Origin: a virus
DNA length: 45,215 nt
IMG/VR virus record: IMGVR_UViG_3300048549_000086
Location: 1 to 45,215 of that record
Strand: one strand, 5' to 3'
The notes under the pieces are model-generated. The model was given only the letters and a program-made list of their open reading frames with translations, was not told the origin of the DNA and did no database searches. This document shows positions 6,374-33,176 of this stretch, one piece after another. The position numbers and the translations under genes are program-made. Position 1 is the stretch's first letter; every line of letters starts with the position of its first letter.

Positions 6374-6584
6374 TTTTTATTTCATCCCTGTGTTTACGTA
6401 TAACCTGCATTTGTTTTGCTACACGAACTGCTGGATTAGATAAGTCTAACCCATCCTTCATTTTATTATTCATTGTTGTTTTAGACAGCAATCCACCTGT
6501 AGATTTTTCAGGCTTATCACTAGGCATATTTTCTATATCCATATTACGATATGCTTTAACTATATCAGTAAGCGCACGAGACAT
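6366..6584 (-). CDS. Small unknown late protein (72 aa)
   Basis: The ATG at 6584 has AAGGAG seven bases upstream and lies 20 bases inside the end of the 702-residue gene. The protein is short, charged and probably helical, with a Lys/Arg-rich C-terminal half ending in H-R-D-E-I-K-N-G. No family is recognised. The strong ribosome binding site and tight packing between virion genes support a real gene, perhaps a minor virion protein or a chaperone for a neighbour. Confidence 0.6.
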   Translation of the reverse strand: MSRALTDIVKAYRNMDIENMPSDKPEKSTGGLLSKTTMNNKMKDGLDLSNPAVRVAKQMQVIRKHRDEIKNG

Positions 6585-8673
6585 TATGCTTCTCCTTCTT
6601 TTTTTCTACTACCATATCCATAAGTTTCTTAGTTGCCCATTTTAATGGCGGTACTTTAGCTATTAGTTTAGCATAATTTTCACCGTGTGTCATGTATAAT
6701 TTTTTAAACCATTTTGGTGCATCATACTGTAACCATGTACGGAAGATAAACCATTGTACATTTTTGCTACCGTACACTTCACGTGCTACCCAGCAGGACA
6801 TAATCCATGCAGAGCCAAGTGTTCCAATCAAGCTACCAATAGCATTACCTGCAGCACCAGAGGATTGCTCACTAGCAATTGTACTACGTGTCTTAGCATC
6901 CAGTTCAGCAATAGCCAAAGCATTAACACGGTCTATCTGATTTTCAGCAGATGTCCATGCCCACTCCATCGTATCTGAATAGTAGTTCCATAAGTTACTA
7001 TATGCTTGCTTACTAATATCCAACACTGCTGAAGCATTAAGTTCGTTAGCACGATTGATAGCTGCAGTATCTGCAGTAGCAATCTGTCTACGCCACTGTG
7101 CATTTGCCTGTGCAATCACAAGTTGATTACCTGCATTAAATTGGTCACGTTGATTATTAAGTTCAGCGTTAAATCTTTCTACTGTATTAGCCTGACCTGC
7201 ATTAAACTGGCTCTGAGCATTTTGTTGCGTTGCATTAAACTGTGAAGTTTGAGATGCAAGACTGGCAAAGAACTGGTCAACTTGATTTTGTGAACTAGCA
7301 TTAAACTGTCTTGCAGCATTAGTAGCAGCAGCATCTGTAAACATAGACTGTACTCGTTGTTGTGCTTTAAACAATTCAGTCTGTTGATTGTTTGACAAGT
7401 TAGCCATGTCAACCTGCAAGAAGTTCTGTGCGTTCTGTACTGCGGCTTGCTGTCGATTACTTAAATTAGCTGTGTCTAACTGTGCCAGCGCAGAGGCTTC
7501 AGCCATTACAAGAGCCTGTGAGTTAGACAAGTTCTGCAAGTTCATTGTATTAGCAGCACGTGAGTTCTCTAGCTGTACCTGCTGCTCTGCTGTAAAGTTC
7601 TGGTTGGCAATGTCACTAATCTTACTAGCGTTCATTACCTTCATTTGGAATGTCTGGTCAAACTCCTGACCCATGAACCTAGCACGTTGTTCTGCAGCAA
7701 GCATCGCTGACTGCTGTCGGTTAGATAAGTTTTGTGATTCAAACTTGGCTACTGTCTGTGCATCTGCCATTGCGATAGGCATTGCAGACTCCATAGCAGC
7801 CTGTACAACCGCCTGACCAGCAATGGATGATGCACCTAGCCCACGAGAAGCCATAGCCGATGTAGCAGCCCTCATAGCCCCTGCAGCCCATGCTGGTGTA
7901 GCACCGCCTTGGAACTGCTGCATCAAACCGTCAAGCTGTGTAGCCACCATAGTTTGTGCTGAAGGGTTAGCCTGTGCAGCAGCAGCATCTGTCTGTGCAG
8001 TTACCTGTGCAGCTTTAGTAGCATCAACACCTGTACCGCTAATTAGTTCACCCTGCTGTATCTGACGCTGTACAGGATTATTAATAAGAATTGCGTTACC
8101 CTGTGCTGCTTGCAAGTTACCAACAGATGATTGAGTTTGTTGTGCTGCAGTTACTTGTAGTCTAGGATCATTTGGATCTGACTGTGCAGCTTGCGTGGCA
8201 GATACTGCAGCATCTACATTAGCAGCAGTAGTGTCTGCTTGCATAGTATTTGCTTGAGTAGGCTGTTGCATACCTGCTGTATATGCTGTAGCTAAATTAG
8301 TCCCTACATCAACTTGACCAGTAACTGTACCTGTACCGGGTTGTATTTCTTGCCCAGCATCATATTGTATTTGTTGTGGCGTAGTCACACCACCTGCTGG
8401 TAGTGTAGGGTCGTAGATACGGTTTACTGTCTCCTGTGTGATACCCGGTCCATCTGAAGATACTGCATTTGGCTGCACTGCGCCACCTGTTTGCATCTTA
8501 ACCATACCACCTTTAGCCATCTGCATAGCTTTATTTTGATACCCTTGCATCTTCTGTTGTTTCATGGGATCTTGTGCAAGGAAGTCTTGGAATCCCTGCA
8601 TATTACCTTGATAGCCCATAGACCGTGCTATTTTTTCCATGCCACTAGGTTTAAATGCTTTAAACATTGCCAT
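6565..8673 (-). CDS. Internal virion protein with N-L-S-N-R-Q-Q repeats (702 aa)
   Basis: The N-terminal third is Gln/Ala/Thr-rich and low in complexity. A central block has T-P-A-W-A-A-G-A-M-R-A-A-T and R-G-L-G-A-S-S-I-A-G-Q. A long helical repeat region follows, where N-L-S-N-R-Q-Q or close variants recur, then Q-F-N-A repeats; this predicts a long coiled rod. After a Gly/Ala hydrophobic stretch, the last 76 residues begin with C-W-V-A-R-E-V-Y-G, a conserved C-terminal unit I associate with virion proteins of many marine podoviruses. AAGGA lies seven bases before the ATG at 8673. I infer an internal or tail-associated ejection protein; the family association is from memory. Confidence 0.75.
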   Translation of the reverse strand: MAMFKAFKPSGMEKIARSMGYQGNMQGFQDFLAQDPMKQQKMQGYQNKAMQMAKGGMVKMQTGGAVQPNAVSSDGPGITQETVNRIYDPTLPAGGVTTPQQIQYDAGQEIQPGTGTVTGQVDVGTNLATAYTAGMQQPTQANTMQADTTAANVDAAVSATQAAQSDPNDPRLQVTAAQQTQSSVGNLQAAQGNAILINNPVQRQIQQGELISGTGVDATKAAQVTAQTDAAAAQANPSAQTMVATQLDGLMQQFQGGATPAWAAGAMRAATSAMASRGLGASSIAGQAVVQAAMESAMPIAMADAQTVAKFESQNLSNRQQSAMLAAEQRARFMGQEFDQTFQMKVMNASKISDIANQNFTAEQQVQLENSRAANTMNLQNLSNSQALVMAEASALAQLDTANLSNRQQAAVQNAQNFLQVDMANLSNNQQTELFKAQQRVQSMFTDAAATNAARQFNASSQNQVDQFFASLASQTSQFNATQQNAQSQFNAGQANTVERFNAELNNQRDQFNAGNQLVIAQANAQWRRQIATADTAAINRANELNASAVLDISKQAYSNLWNYYSDTMEWAWTSAENQIDRVNALAIAELDAKTRSTIASEQSSGAAGNAIGSLIGTLGSAWIMSCWVAREVYGSKNVQWFIFRTWLQYDAPKWFKKLYMTHGENYAKLIAKVPPLKWATKKLMDMVVEKKKEKHNVSCAY

Positions 8674-22701: not shown

Positions 22702-25413
22702 TTATGCTGCTTCTTCTACGACCTCTTGTAGATTCATCATTTCAAGAAGTTCTTCTTCTATACCATCTTCATCTACCATGTCGTAATCTGAGTATACTAC
22801 TTTGTCTTCTGCAACCATTCTATGATTTTCATTGGTTATAGTGTACAACAAATCTTCTGTTTCTGCGGGGGTTGCATTTTCTGCATTACGAGTAAATTTC
22901 CATACCCCTTGTTCCCGCACAGGGTGTGTACCTGTTACTTTTGTTGTTCCGTACATATACCAATCTGATTTAGAGCCATCTCCTATAATAGCTAGTCGAA
23001 CTTTACCACCATCCATCATAGTGTCTCCAACTTTAATATTTTCCACAGATTTAAGAGAACCGTCTTGCATGAAGAATTTAGTTCCCGCAGCAAAACAACC
23101 GGGGCCACCGCTAGAGCTACCGCTGGCACTGTTGTCCTCTTTACCAACTGCTGCATCTCTATCTTCTGACCTTACGCCGCCACCAAATGATGCATCCAAA
23201 TCTTCTGACCTTACGCCGCCACCTTTGCCAGTAGCCACATCAGCTTTACCGAAATCTGCAGCAGATTTTCCAGAGGTGTGGCTAAAGCCTCTATCTTCTC
23301 TGCCATTGGCTTTGTCTCGTTGTATCTTTGCTTGTTGTCGTTTCTTTTCTGCCAAACTTTTATAATATGATCCAGCTTTAGTATAAGCATTTTTTATAGG
23401 CTCCATCAATCCTGTTTTAACATTTCTTGACATTGCTCTTGTTTTATAACCATTAATTTCTTCGCCCGCTTCAATTGAGTCAAGTTCAGCCTGTGCTTCT
23501 TCCATAACATTTTCCATTGATTTAGCATAGTCGCTATTACTAAGAGTGCCACCATTAAGCATAGACCGTGGTAAACTATCACTTCTTGGTGTATCTGAAT
23601 CTGGTCCAAATTCTGAATTAAGATAATTTTCATACCCTTTTTTCATTGCTTCATATGCGTCTATTTCTATTTGTTTAGCTTTAGTAGAACTAAGAACACC
23701 AGAAATAGCTGCATCTACATTTTCACCAGCTTTTGCCGCTGCGTGTGCTGCATTTATGGCTTCTGCTACAAGATCAGCTTGAGCATTAGACATCATTTGA
23801 TCTGTATTAATCATACCCATGTGTTCTAGTGTATTTGTTTTACCAGTATGCCCAGCTATAGCCATATCATTTAAACTAGAGTCCAAAAACCCTATACCTT
23901 TTCCTAGCGCTGTTGCCGCACCCGTTACACCAAAAGACCCAGCTTGATACATTCCTTGTTTAGCTATAGCTTTTTTGTAATTATCGTTACTGAATCCAAA
24001 TTCAACATTTCCTCCATATGCTTCAGTAGTAGAGTCAAAACCTTGAAAGGGAGATTGCACTCTTGCTGTTTGTCCTACGGGTGTGGTTGAAGTGGTCGTT
24101 CCAACACTAGTAGAAGGCGTAGTAACATCGGTCATATTTGGGCCTTTATCATCCCTATCTGTAACGGTAGTAGTTGGTCCACTTAATTGAGTAACAGGTT
24201 GTTCTTGTTTAGGTTGATTTTCTTGAGGTCTATACCCATCAGGAATAGGGTAAACAGGCTTACCGTCTACAAATGCTATCTGTAATACTTGTCCTGCGTC
24301 ATTTACATAAGTGCGCAACTCTGAACCCTGATAACCCGAACCAACCATTTGACCAAAGGTAGGTATATTAGTTGTTTGATCTGCTGTAGTATATTGCGTA
24401 CCCGTATATTGCAAAGGTTGCATATATGGTTGTGTGCCTGTATATGGCGTGTATCCCGTATTAGGTGTTTGTTGACTTGGTTGAAAACCGCCTATACCTG
24501 TTCCGGGCATACTATATGTACCTGTCTGCGGATTATAGGTAGGAACCATACCGCCAACATTCATTCTTAATGAATCATTATTCTCACCATCATCTTCTAC
24601 TTCAAGGTCATACATATCAAATGGTAGATCATCTGGCATAGTAGCTTCTTCACTATTACCCATTTGACCCATCTCTTCCATTTGGGCTAGACCCATCTTA
24701 GCTTCCTGACGCATACGCATCAAGTTCTCAAGGCCAATATAACGAACTACGTCTGCAGGAAATACAAATTCACCCTCACTGAGTTGAGCAGGAATGTCAT
24801 CACGGACTTCTTCTTGTGTTGAGCCGGGTGGTACATCATTACCAGACACAGGGTCTACTGTGCCACCTTCGTCCATAAGTCCACCATCGTTAAAGCCACG
24901 TTCTACTGGCTCAAAGAGTTCCATTTGTTTTGCAAGACCGCCTGTTTTCATTTCAATTTCCCTTCGCCCTTCAGTGCTTCTACGAGGACTTGTACCTTCA
25001 CTTTTATCTTCAAAGTCCTGAAGTTTCATCTGTTCTACCGCAGCTTTTGCAGCTTTAATAAATCCCTCTTCACTAGAATCTCCAGAGTCAATAAGTCTAT
25101 CTCTAAGCCTACTACCATACTTATTATTGTTTATATCTATTTCGCTTTCCTTGCCATCTGATTCCATCAATTTAGTATTAATAAATTTACTAGCAATTGT
25201 TTTACCCATATTATTTTCTTGACCGGGTACATTTTTAATTAACCCACCTAAAAGAATATGACGCAAAGTATCTTCATATGAATCATCTTGTTTTGTTTGT
25301 GCGGAGTAATCTCTAGCATCTTTAGTTGCACGTGTTGTAGCGTCACGCACACCTAAAAAATCTGCAGCATCTCTTCTAGCTTGACGTATGCTGTACTCTT
25401 TTTTATCCGCCAT
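22702..25413 (-). CDS. Virion-associated protein ending in a Hint (intein/hedgehog) domain (903 aa)
   Basis: The ATG at 25413 is preferred to one at 25422 because AAGGG then lies nine bases upstream. The N-terminal 150 residues are charged helices. Residues about 175-275 carry D-G-G-L-M-D-E-G-G-T-V-D-P-V-S-G, then L-S-E-G-E-F-V-F-P-A-D-V-V-R-Y-I-G, a block I know from many marine podovirus virion proteins. A Gly/Thr/Gln/Tyr-rich low-complexity stretch and an Ala-rich helical region follow. The last 131 residues are a Hint domain starting G-P-G-C-F-A-A-G-T, with D-G-S-L-K-S-V-E-N-I-K-V-G-D (block A) and T-G-T-H-P-V (block B). No extein and no terminal H-N are present. It lies between portal and scaffold, so the protein may act in the head or portal vertex. 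Confidence 0.8.
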   Translation of the reverse strand: MADKKEYSIRQARRDAADFLGVRDATTRATKDARDYSAQTKQDDSYEDTLRHILLGGLIKNVPGQENNMGKTIASKFINTKLMESDGKESEIDINNNKYGSRLRDRLIDSGDSSEEGFIKAAKAAVEQMKLQDFEDKSEGTSPRRSTEGRREIEMKTGGLAKQMELFEPVERGFNDGGLMDEGGTVDPVSGNDVPPGSTQEEVRDDIPAQLSEGEFVFPADVVRYIGLENLMRMRQEAKMGLAQMEEMGQMGNSEEATMPDDLPFDMYDLEVEDDGENNDSLRMNVGGMVPTYNPQTGTYSMPGTGIGGFQPSQQTPNTGYTPYTGTQPYMQPLQYTGTQYTTADQTTNIPTFGQMVGSGYQGSELRTYVNDAGQVLQIAFVDGKPVYPIPDGYRPQENQPKQEQPVTQLSGPTTTVTDRDDKGPNMTDVTTPSTSVGTTTSTTPVGQTARVQSPFQGFDSTTEAYGGNVEFGFSNDNYKKAIAKQGMYQAGSFGVTGAATALGKGIGFLDSSLNDMAIAGHTGKTNTLEHMGMINTDQMMSNAQADLVAEAINAAHAAAKAGENVDAAISGVLSSTKAKQIEIDAYEAMKKGYENYLNSEFGPDSDTPRSDSLPRSMLNGGTLSNSDYAKSMENVMEEAQAELDSIEAGEEINGYKTRAMSRNVKTGLMEPIKNAYTKAGSYYKSLAEKKRQQAKIQRDKANGREDRGFSHTSGKSAADFGKADVATGKGGGVRSEDLDASFGGGVRSEDRDAAVGKEDNSASGSSSGGPGCFAAGTKFFMQDGSLKSVENIKVGDTMMDGGKVRLAIIGDGSKSDWYMYGTTKVTGTHPVREQGVWKFTRNAENATPAETEDLLYTITNENHRMVAEDKVVYSDYDMVDEDGIEEELLEMMNLQEVVEEAA
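23161..23223 (-). repeat. Short tandem repeat before the Hint domain
   Basis: A 24-base unit occurs twice at a 39-base period (23161-23184 and 23200-23223). On the minus strand it encodes the repeated peptide G-G-G-V-R-S-E-D in the flexible linker ahead of the Hint domain. It probably arose by a recent local duplication. Confidence 0.75.
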
Positions 25414-25612
25414 TGACTGCATCCCTTAGTGTTTTAATACTACGTAACACTGCAATCGCCCCTTGCGCACGATGCATAAAAACTGTGTTATCGCCTTGTT
25501 CTAATGTACGATGTTGCTGTTCAATCAGCGCATCTAAATACTTATTGAAGTGGTCCCATTGGCGGCTGTTGCTGACCATTGGCTTCAGCTTGCTGAGTAT
25601 TTCCTTGTCCAT
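25403..25612 (-). CDS. Small protein coupled to portal (69 aa)
   Basis: The helical protein has W-D-H-F-N-K-Y-L-D-A-L-I-E and Q-G-A-I-A-V-L-R-S-I-K-T-L-R-D-A-V-N. Similar short proteins sit just after the portal in many marine podoviruses. It overlaps the portal gene end by 71 bases and the next gene by 11. I use the ATG at 25612, with AAGGA ten bases upstream; a GTG at 25633 would add seven residues. Function unknown; co-translation with portal suggests a portal or packaging accessory. Confidence 0.65.
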   Translation of the reverse strand: MDKEILSKLKPMVSNSRQWDHFNKYLDALIEQQHRTLEQGDNTVFMHRAQGAIAVLRSIKTLRDAVNGG

Positions 25613-32105: not shown

Positions 32106-33176
32106 TTACGCTGCCAGTGCGGGATTACTAGCATCCAGTTGCATCCACTTAGACCACTCTGCGTAGTAGTGTCGCATACCTACTTCATCGTGGATTGTGC
32201 TATTCTCATGTCGTCCATGCAAGATGTTACGGGGTTCTGTGCCTTCTCGCATTGTAGTGCCTTGACCTGCGACACCAATCAGGTCTTCATGTAAGTTTCT
32301 ACCAAACGGCCCCCAGATTGAGTTATGGTGTTTGATACGTGTCTGTCTTTCTTCGGGGGTATCTTTCTTTAAGCCATAGCCACGGAACTCAATCAGTACT
32401 TTGTTTGGTCCTAGCGGTGTTACGCTGTCACTACGATATGCACTGCCACGTAAGTTAAAGTTGTAGCCGGGAAATAAATCTACCATATACCACTGGTTAG
32501 GTGGAAGGTTAGGGAAACTAAGTTCTCCTCTGTCTTCAAAACCATCGTACTCTTCGTAGTTAACTGTAAAGCTACTGACGTTGACGTGTCCGTTATCAAA
32601 TGGGATATTTTTTCTAGCAAAGTACTCATCGTTAAATCCTGACACACGGTTAAAGTAATGCATAAAGTCGTGGTAGAACTCTGAATTAGTATCATGCCAC
32701 AGTTTGTAATTAGTATCTATTACTGCCTTGTGGTAATGAAACACTTCCATCTCTTCAGTGTCAATAGCATCAGCAATACAATCAAACGCACCTGCTGTCC
32801 ATTCGTCTACGCTTTGTGTTGGATTAGGGTCTAGTGTCACCCAGACCATTCCGCCGTGTTTTATTTCGCAGTGTAGTTCTGGTTCAAGCGATACCATAGG
32901 TACAGCCAATGTTCCACTTGGTTTACTTATAGTGTGGTTTTTATATGCTTTGACGCCATCGCCTGTATTCCATGCAATAACATTTACACCAGCTATTTGC
33001 GTTGTTCTAAAGTTACCCTTGTTGTACATCTCACTGATGTGACACATAGGCACCCATACTTTGGAAAATATGTTTTCTTGTTCCTGCTCATATAGGCTGT
33101 GGTCTGAATATATAAGCGAATTGATGTGTTCTACTTTAGGTTTCTTTGTCCAGTCTTTATGATTACGTGGTGCCAT
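32106..33176 (-). CDS. Rieske-oxygenase alpha-subunit-like protein lacking the Rieske cluster motif (356 aa)
   Basis: The fold order is that of ring-hydroxylating oxygenase alpha subunits: I-F-S-K-V-W-V-P-M-C-H, then G-N-F-R-T-T-Q-I-A-G-V, and W-V-T-L-D-P-N-P. Then comes N-Y-K-L-W-H-D-T-N-S-E-F-Y-H-D-F-M-H, which holds two iron-ligand histidines (H169, H173); late E-D-L-I-G-V-A-G-Q (D298) supplies the acidic ligand. Between about residues 79 and 101, where the family has C-x-H and C-x-x-H about 16-20 residues apart, only N-H-T-I-S-K-P-S-G-T-L is found; neither cysteine is present. So the mononuclear iron site looks intact but the 2Fe-2S site is gone. An HMO-2011-type phage is remembered to carry a methanesulfonate monooxygenase-like gene; this may be its relative. 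Start has no strong ribosome site. Confidence 0.8.
   Translation of the reverse strand: MAPRNHKDWTKKPKVEHINSLIYSDHSLYEQEQENIFSKVWVPMCHISEMYNKGNFRTTQIAGVNVIAWNTGDGVKAYKNHTISKPSGTLAVPMVSLEPELHCEIKHGGMVWVTLDPNPTQSVDEWTAGAFDCIADAIDTEEMEVFHYHKAVIDTNYKLWHDTNSEFYHDFMHYFNRVSGFNDEYFARKNIPFDNGHVNVSSFTVNYEEYDGFEDRGELSFPNLPPNQWYMVDLFPGYNFNLRGSAYRSDSVTPLGPNKVLIEFRGYGLKKDTPEERQTRIKHHNSIWGPFGRNLHEDLIGVAGQGTTMREGTEPRNILHGRHENSTIHDEVGMRHYYAEWSKWMQLDASNPALAA

Follow-up and report, generated by a model that had tools for sequence, protein, structure and literature searches.

A Rieske-less MsmA-like subunit encoded by marine phages, probably completed by a Rieske-reductase half of the SAR116 host

In Rieske oxygenases, electrons pass from the cluster of one subunit through an acidic bridge to the iron of the neighbouring subunit, and because this transfer runs between subunits, a chain that has only the cluster and a chain that has only the iron can each supply what the other lacks at the interface. 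Canonical alpha subunits of methanesulfonate monooxygenase (MsmA; e.g. at loci L100 and L106) carry the CxH-X26-CxxH motif as well as the iron site on one chain, and the reductase MsmD is a separate protein. The caffeine N7-demethylase NdmC/NdmD/NdmE consists of an oxygenase subunit devoid of a Rieske domain and a reductase chain on which the Rieske domain resides (PMC4408171). A phage gene presumed to be an auxiliary gene of methanesulfonate oxidation is known from HMO-2011, which ranks among the most abundant marine phage types (PMC4928673), and according to a 2015 paper (PMC4433239), the Rieske motif is missing from the HMO-2011 protein and from one of the two "MsmA" proteins of the host IMCC1322. 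Loss of the iron site in the other MsmA of this host is not described in the available parts of the HMO-2011 literature, which do not include Kang et al. 2013, and two genome surveys of SAR116 mention msmA and describe no split.

The stretch of DNA analysed here (the window) is a virus record of 45,215 bases and a close relative of Puniceispirillum phage HMO-2011 (terminase 87% identical). It contains a strongly selected relative of the gene for MsmA, initially annotated as an intact frame of 356 residues, a description that holds for the frame running from 33176 to 32106 on the minus strand. The gene and its relevant sites are:

32106..33176, minus strand: Rieske-less MsmA-like catalytic (iron-site) subunit, 356 aa
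32943..33059, minus strand: residues 40-78, beta scaffold kept from the former Rieske domain (AlphaFold2, block pLDDT ~91-97)
32874..32942, minus strand: residues 79-101, short and variable substitute, free of Cys, for the lobe that binds [2Fe-2S] (alignment with canonical MsmA)
32679..32681, minus strand: E166, acid at H-3, corresponding to the bridging Asp in Rieske oxygenases (alignment)
32670..32672, minus strand: H169, mononuclear iron ligand (alignment)
32658..32660, minus strand: H173, mononuclear iron ligand (alignment)
32283..32285, minus strand: D298, mononuclear iron ligand (alignment)

The location within a late virion/lysis block, which had been called odd, is real and common to HMO-2011; in both genomes a host-type metabolic gene, as expected of an auxiliary metabolic gene, lies within the structural/lysis block. 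The product of HMO-2011 gp61, designated "methanesulfonate monooxygenase" (NC_021864.1, YP_008320323.1), is 75% identical to the window protein, is encoded at the same gene position in a shared neighbourhood, and also lacks the Rieske motif and the cluster, which settles whether the HMO-2011 copy has the same defect. Two other window proteins have unusual ends: a 906-aa virion-block protein (22702-25422, minus strand) has a terminal stretch resembling a Hint/intein-like start (GCFAAGTKFFMQDGSLKSVENIKVGDTMMDGG), and a 702-aa repetitive protein (6565-8673, minus strand) has a distinct tail, from SCWVAREVYG, that is unlike the remaining chain.

Against Pfam, the 356-aa protein scored 31.0 bits (cut-off 24.9) for the ring-hydroxylating alpha catalytic domain, PF00848, and gave no match to the Rieske domain PF00355. 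In the alignment with canonical MsmA, H169, H173 and D298 fall in the iron-ligand columns, as had been proposed, and E166 aligns with the acid three residues before the first histidine. Of the hallmarks of a Rieske-type oxygenase alpha subunit, the 2-His-1-Asp site and the H-3 acid are thus present and CxH-X26-CxxH is absent. The canonical proteins have CPH-X26-CMFH at the position of residues ~79-101; in the window protein this region is deleted and replaced by a Cys-free segment with a mean column conservation of just 0.445 among viral copies, so that Pfam, alignment and viral copies agree with the initial annotation on the loss of the C-x-H...C-x-x-H pair. A hidden cluster site was considered and rejected, since residues 60-128 contain no conserved set of Cys and His, and none of H102, C103 and H107 is constant among phages. 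The alignment and structure prediction proposed earlier lead to the same picture of a Rieske oxygenase fold with the cluster lobe missing: in the AlphaFold2 model (mean pLDDT 82), the beta scaffold of the Rieske domain persists and is well predicted, the lobe that holds the cluster is gone, and the iron-site helix (residues 168-186) is modelled with low confidence. The nearest solved structures are alpha subunits of Rieske oxygenases, the best being terephthalate dioxygenase (7q04, E 4.4e-20).

The gene matched at least 599 viral stretches, and 202 full-length viral copies (141 distinct) were extracted for motif counts. The deletion recurs throughout these related phage sequences, as the Rieske motif occurs in 0/202 copies; EFYHD[FY]MH and HEDL are kept in all 202. 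The 141 distinct intact sequences exclude a sequencing error, chance or a lone oddity. Median dN/dS was 0.028 for the catalytic domain as compared to 0.22 for the N-terminal domain, values that are rough because synonymous changes are near saturation; the catalytic domain is under strong purifying selection. Neither a Rieske half nor any other MsmA-type Rieske lobe was found on any viral contig, and MsmB and MsmC were likewise not found in the viral loci or scans. Matches labelled "Acinetobacter phage MD-2021a" were considered as a phage-borne Rieske half and discarded, as they are distant dioxygenases, probably from bacterial DNA in those records. For phages carrying the gene, the known host is IMCC1322; the gene is absent from other HMO-2011-type isolates, which infect Roseobacter and Pelagibacter. 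It also occurs in phages unlike HMO-2011 (L098 8001-9089; L276 6001-7065; L267 6001-7059; L274 6001-7080), one of these contigs being 221 kb in size, where it lies close either to genes for ribonucleotide reductase, glutaredoxin and nucleases or to genes for redoxin and DNA ligase; L276 and L098, with copies near nrdA/nrdB, glutaredoxin and nuclease genes, represent a second phage type.

A genome scan for relatives of the protein returned two main kinds. Canonical MsmA proteins of ~415 aa with CxH-X26-CxxH are mostly 53-58% identical to it, and SAR116 proteins of ~362 aa, from which the motif is absent, are mostly 77-81% identical. The SAR116 loci also contain a fusion gene of ~800 aa comprising an MsmA-like part and a pyridine nucleotide-disulphide (FAD) reductase. 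In most of them, transport genes are followed by the genes for the Rieske half-reductase, MsmB, MsmC, a 281-aa protein and the short MsmA, with one-carbon genes adjoining; in a few genomes the halves are ~10-12 kb apart or on separate contigs. The transport genes are of the ABC type (sulfonate-type), and on reading of the sequences the loci also appear to hold sulfite-exporter-like, formate-tetrahydrofolate ligase and FolD-like genes. MsmC is a Rieske ferredoxin that keeps its Rieske motif and matches PF00355. The separate reductase MsmD is present in canonical loci, and none was seen in split loci. The 281-aa protein has no Pfam or PDB match; considered as a possible analogue of NdmE, it proved not to be specific to split loci, since it occurs in canonical msm loci too. 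This protein without a known family could matter for the enzyme.

Some loci deviate from this arrangement. In G005 (L178 12689-15075), Rieske half and reductase are two separate frames with a 4-base overlap, without fusion. The MAG G004 has the split set in duplicate, with ~12 kb between the Rieske half and the short form in each case (L179 1625-3988 and 15071-16162; contigs C16 and C45). G088, a single contig of 2,753,527 bases which we take to be IMCC1322, the host of HMO-2011, has its split msm row broken up by genes for a molybdopterin oxidoreductase, an iron-sulfur protein and a DmsC/NrfD-like anchor (L177 10912-15502). Such genes were named dmsABC in a SAR116 survey (PMC8547437). The set resembles sulfite dehydrogenase or DMSO reductase, of which the former would fit the pathway.

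Comparison of the two kinds of SAR116 protein revealed reciprocal losses. C/H/C/H is intact and E/H/H/D is lost in all Rieske halves examined, which come from SAR116 and from three MAGs binned elsewhere; the short forms keep E/H/H/D and have lost C/H/C/H; canonical MsmA has both sets. The ligand helix is deleted in most Rieske halves, and in that of G088, where the catalytic domain can still be aligned, E is replaced by K and H by Q, with the remaining two ligands absent. Pfam assignments are complementary, the Rieske half matching PF00355 and not PF00848, the short form PF00848 and not PF00355. Relative to canonical MsmA, the Rieske halves are 82% identical in the Rieske lobe and 33% in the catalytic domain, and the short forms 75-77% in the catalytic domain and 40-43% in the N-terminal scaffold. 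The catalytic domain of phage copies is ~77% identical to that of canonical MsmA, with a near-identical iron-site helix, and 91.5% identical to that of the host short forms. The AlphaFold model of the Rieske half is poor (pLDDT 65). In part of the SAR116 clade, MsmA thus exists as two reciprocally decayed paralogues.

The halves also occur together. Among 136 genomes of the order, scanned at E <= 1e-40 and not independent of each other within the clade, the short form was matched in 13 and the Rieske half in 12; 11 genomes have both and 123 neither. Each of the remaining cases has its own context: in G097, the short form adjoins a fusion gene cut by the contig end, leaving the Rieske half incomplete, and G133 has one canonical one-piece MsmA matching both queries. 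MAGs labelled Hellea and Rickettsiales each gave a short-form match and no Rieske half at E <= 1e-40. Locus L098 lies among phage genes and is therefore a viral contig that was binned with bacterial sequence; L083 has no neighbouring genes in common with the bacterial loci.

These observations make it probable that the phage gene specifies only the catalytic part of a methanesulfonate monooxygenase that is split in two, and that the Rieske-reductase half of the SAR116 host completes the enzyme. Late in infection, the phage subunit would join the host Rieske half, MsmB and MsmC. Electrons would flow from NADH via FAD, possibly with MsmC as an intermediate Rieske ferredoxin, to the Rieske cluster of the first chain and through E166 to the iron of the second, short chain, which would oxidise methanesulfonate to formaldehyde and sulfite. 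The retained E166 fits the arrival of electrons from the cluster of a neighbouring chain. Homology and operon content make methanesulfonate the most likely substrate. As for the phage, increased sulfonate oxidation might yield energy or reducing power, and also one-carbon units from which nucleotides could be made at a late stage of infection. It speaks against such an assembly that a plain mixed-chain trimer can have at most one productive Rieske-to-iron junction. Of the possibilities raised by the initial annotation, an external supply of electrons is supported, the likely source being the host Rieske-reductase paralogue that has no iron site of its own. A different reaction with a co-substrate is disfavoured by an active-site region near-identical to that of MsmA and by the retained bridging acid.

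Alternatively, the phage protein might be an active iron oxygenase fed directly by MsmC, or another host ferredoxin, docked in the vacated lobe, which would render the Rieske half dispensable. MsmC does keep a Rieske motif, and deletion of the lobe would be expected to open a docking site; but direct feeding leaves unexplained why the host Rieske half has an 82%-identical lobe and a lost iron site, and why both halves co-occur, and we regard it as unlikely. It is very unlikely that the phage subunit serves as a decoy or dominant-negative which titrates the host Rieske half and blocks methanesulfonate oxidation by the host. Mixing with the host enzyme, as suggested initially, is indeed expected, and the phage gene is carried without partner genes; inhibition as its outcome is at odds with the iron ligands, bridging acid and surrounding active site kept in 202/202 copies and with the catalytic dN/dS of ~0.03, because a poison subunit would not need to keep iron ligands, and the host's own short copy has the same architecture. 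Least probable is a shift in substrate, whereby the phage copy would still pair with the host Rieske half and act on a different small sulfonate or a methylated compound; this would accord with differing residues outside the core and a fast-evolving N-terminal domain and tail, but not with a catalytic domain 91.5% identical to that of the host short forms.

The split enzyme proposed here, with a catalytic chain lacking the Rieske domain and a Rieske-reductase partner, resembles NdmC/NdmD, and is best read as convergent with it. SAR116 hosts encode both chains, the phage only the first. NdmCDE differs in demethylating a methylxanthine and in having the GST-like NdmE. Unlike NdmD, the SAR116 Rieske half derives from an entire alpha subunit, now decayed, and is fused to a reductase of the pyridine nucleotide-disulphide type, and unlike NdmC, the catalytic half is also borne by phages.

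The Rieske-less form has a single origin on the tree (branch support 100/100, length 0.92). The host clade falls among the phage copies, and a single phage clade is not rejected (AU p 0.61). Since the host copies form one clade and the phage copies are more diverse, the catalytic half may have been shaped in phages and then returned to hosts.

The "MsmA" of HMO-2011 is a cited auxiliary gene of the sulfur cycle, whose function has been in doubt because a part thought essential is missing. The host data explain the missing part and lead to the prediction that the phage protein works only with the host Rieske-reductase. Neither SAR116 half alone should be annotated as a complete MsmA, and the Rieske-less gene is very common among marine viruses. 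We lean towards the view that a globally abundant marine clade has one of its enzymes divided between two complementary decayed paralogues, only one of which is spread by phages, giving rise to virus-host chimeric oxygenases during infection. If so, Rieske oxygenases would provide another, apparently independent, example of division across chains, and here half of a host enzyme would come from a virus.
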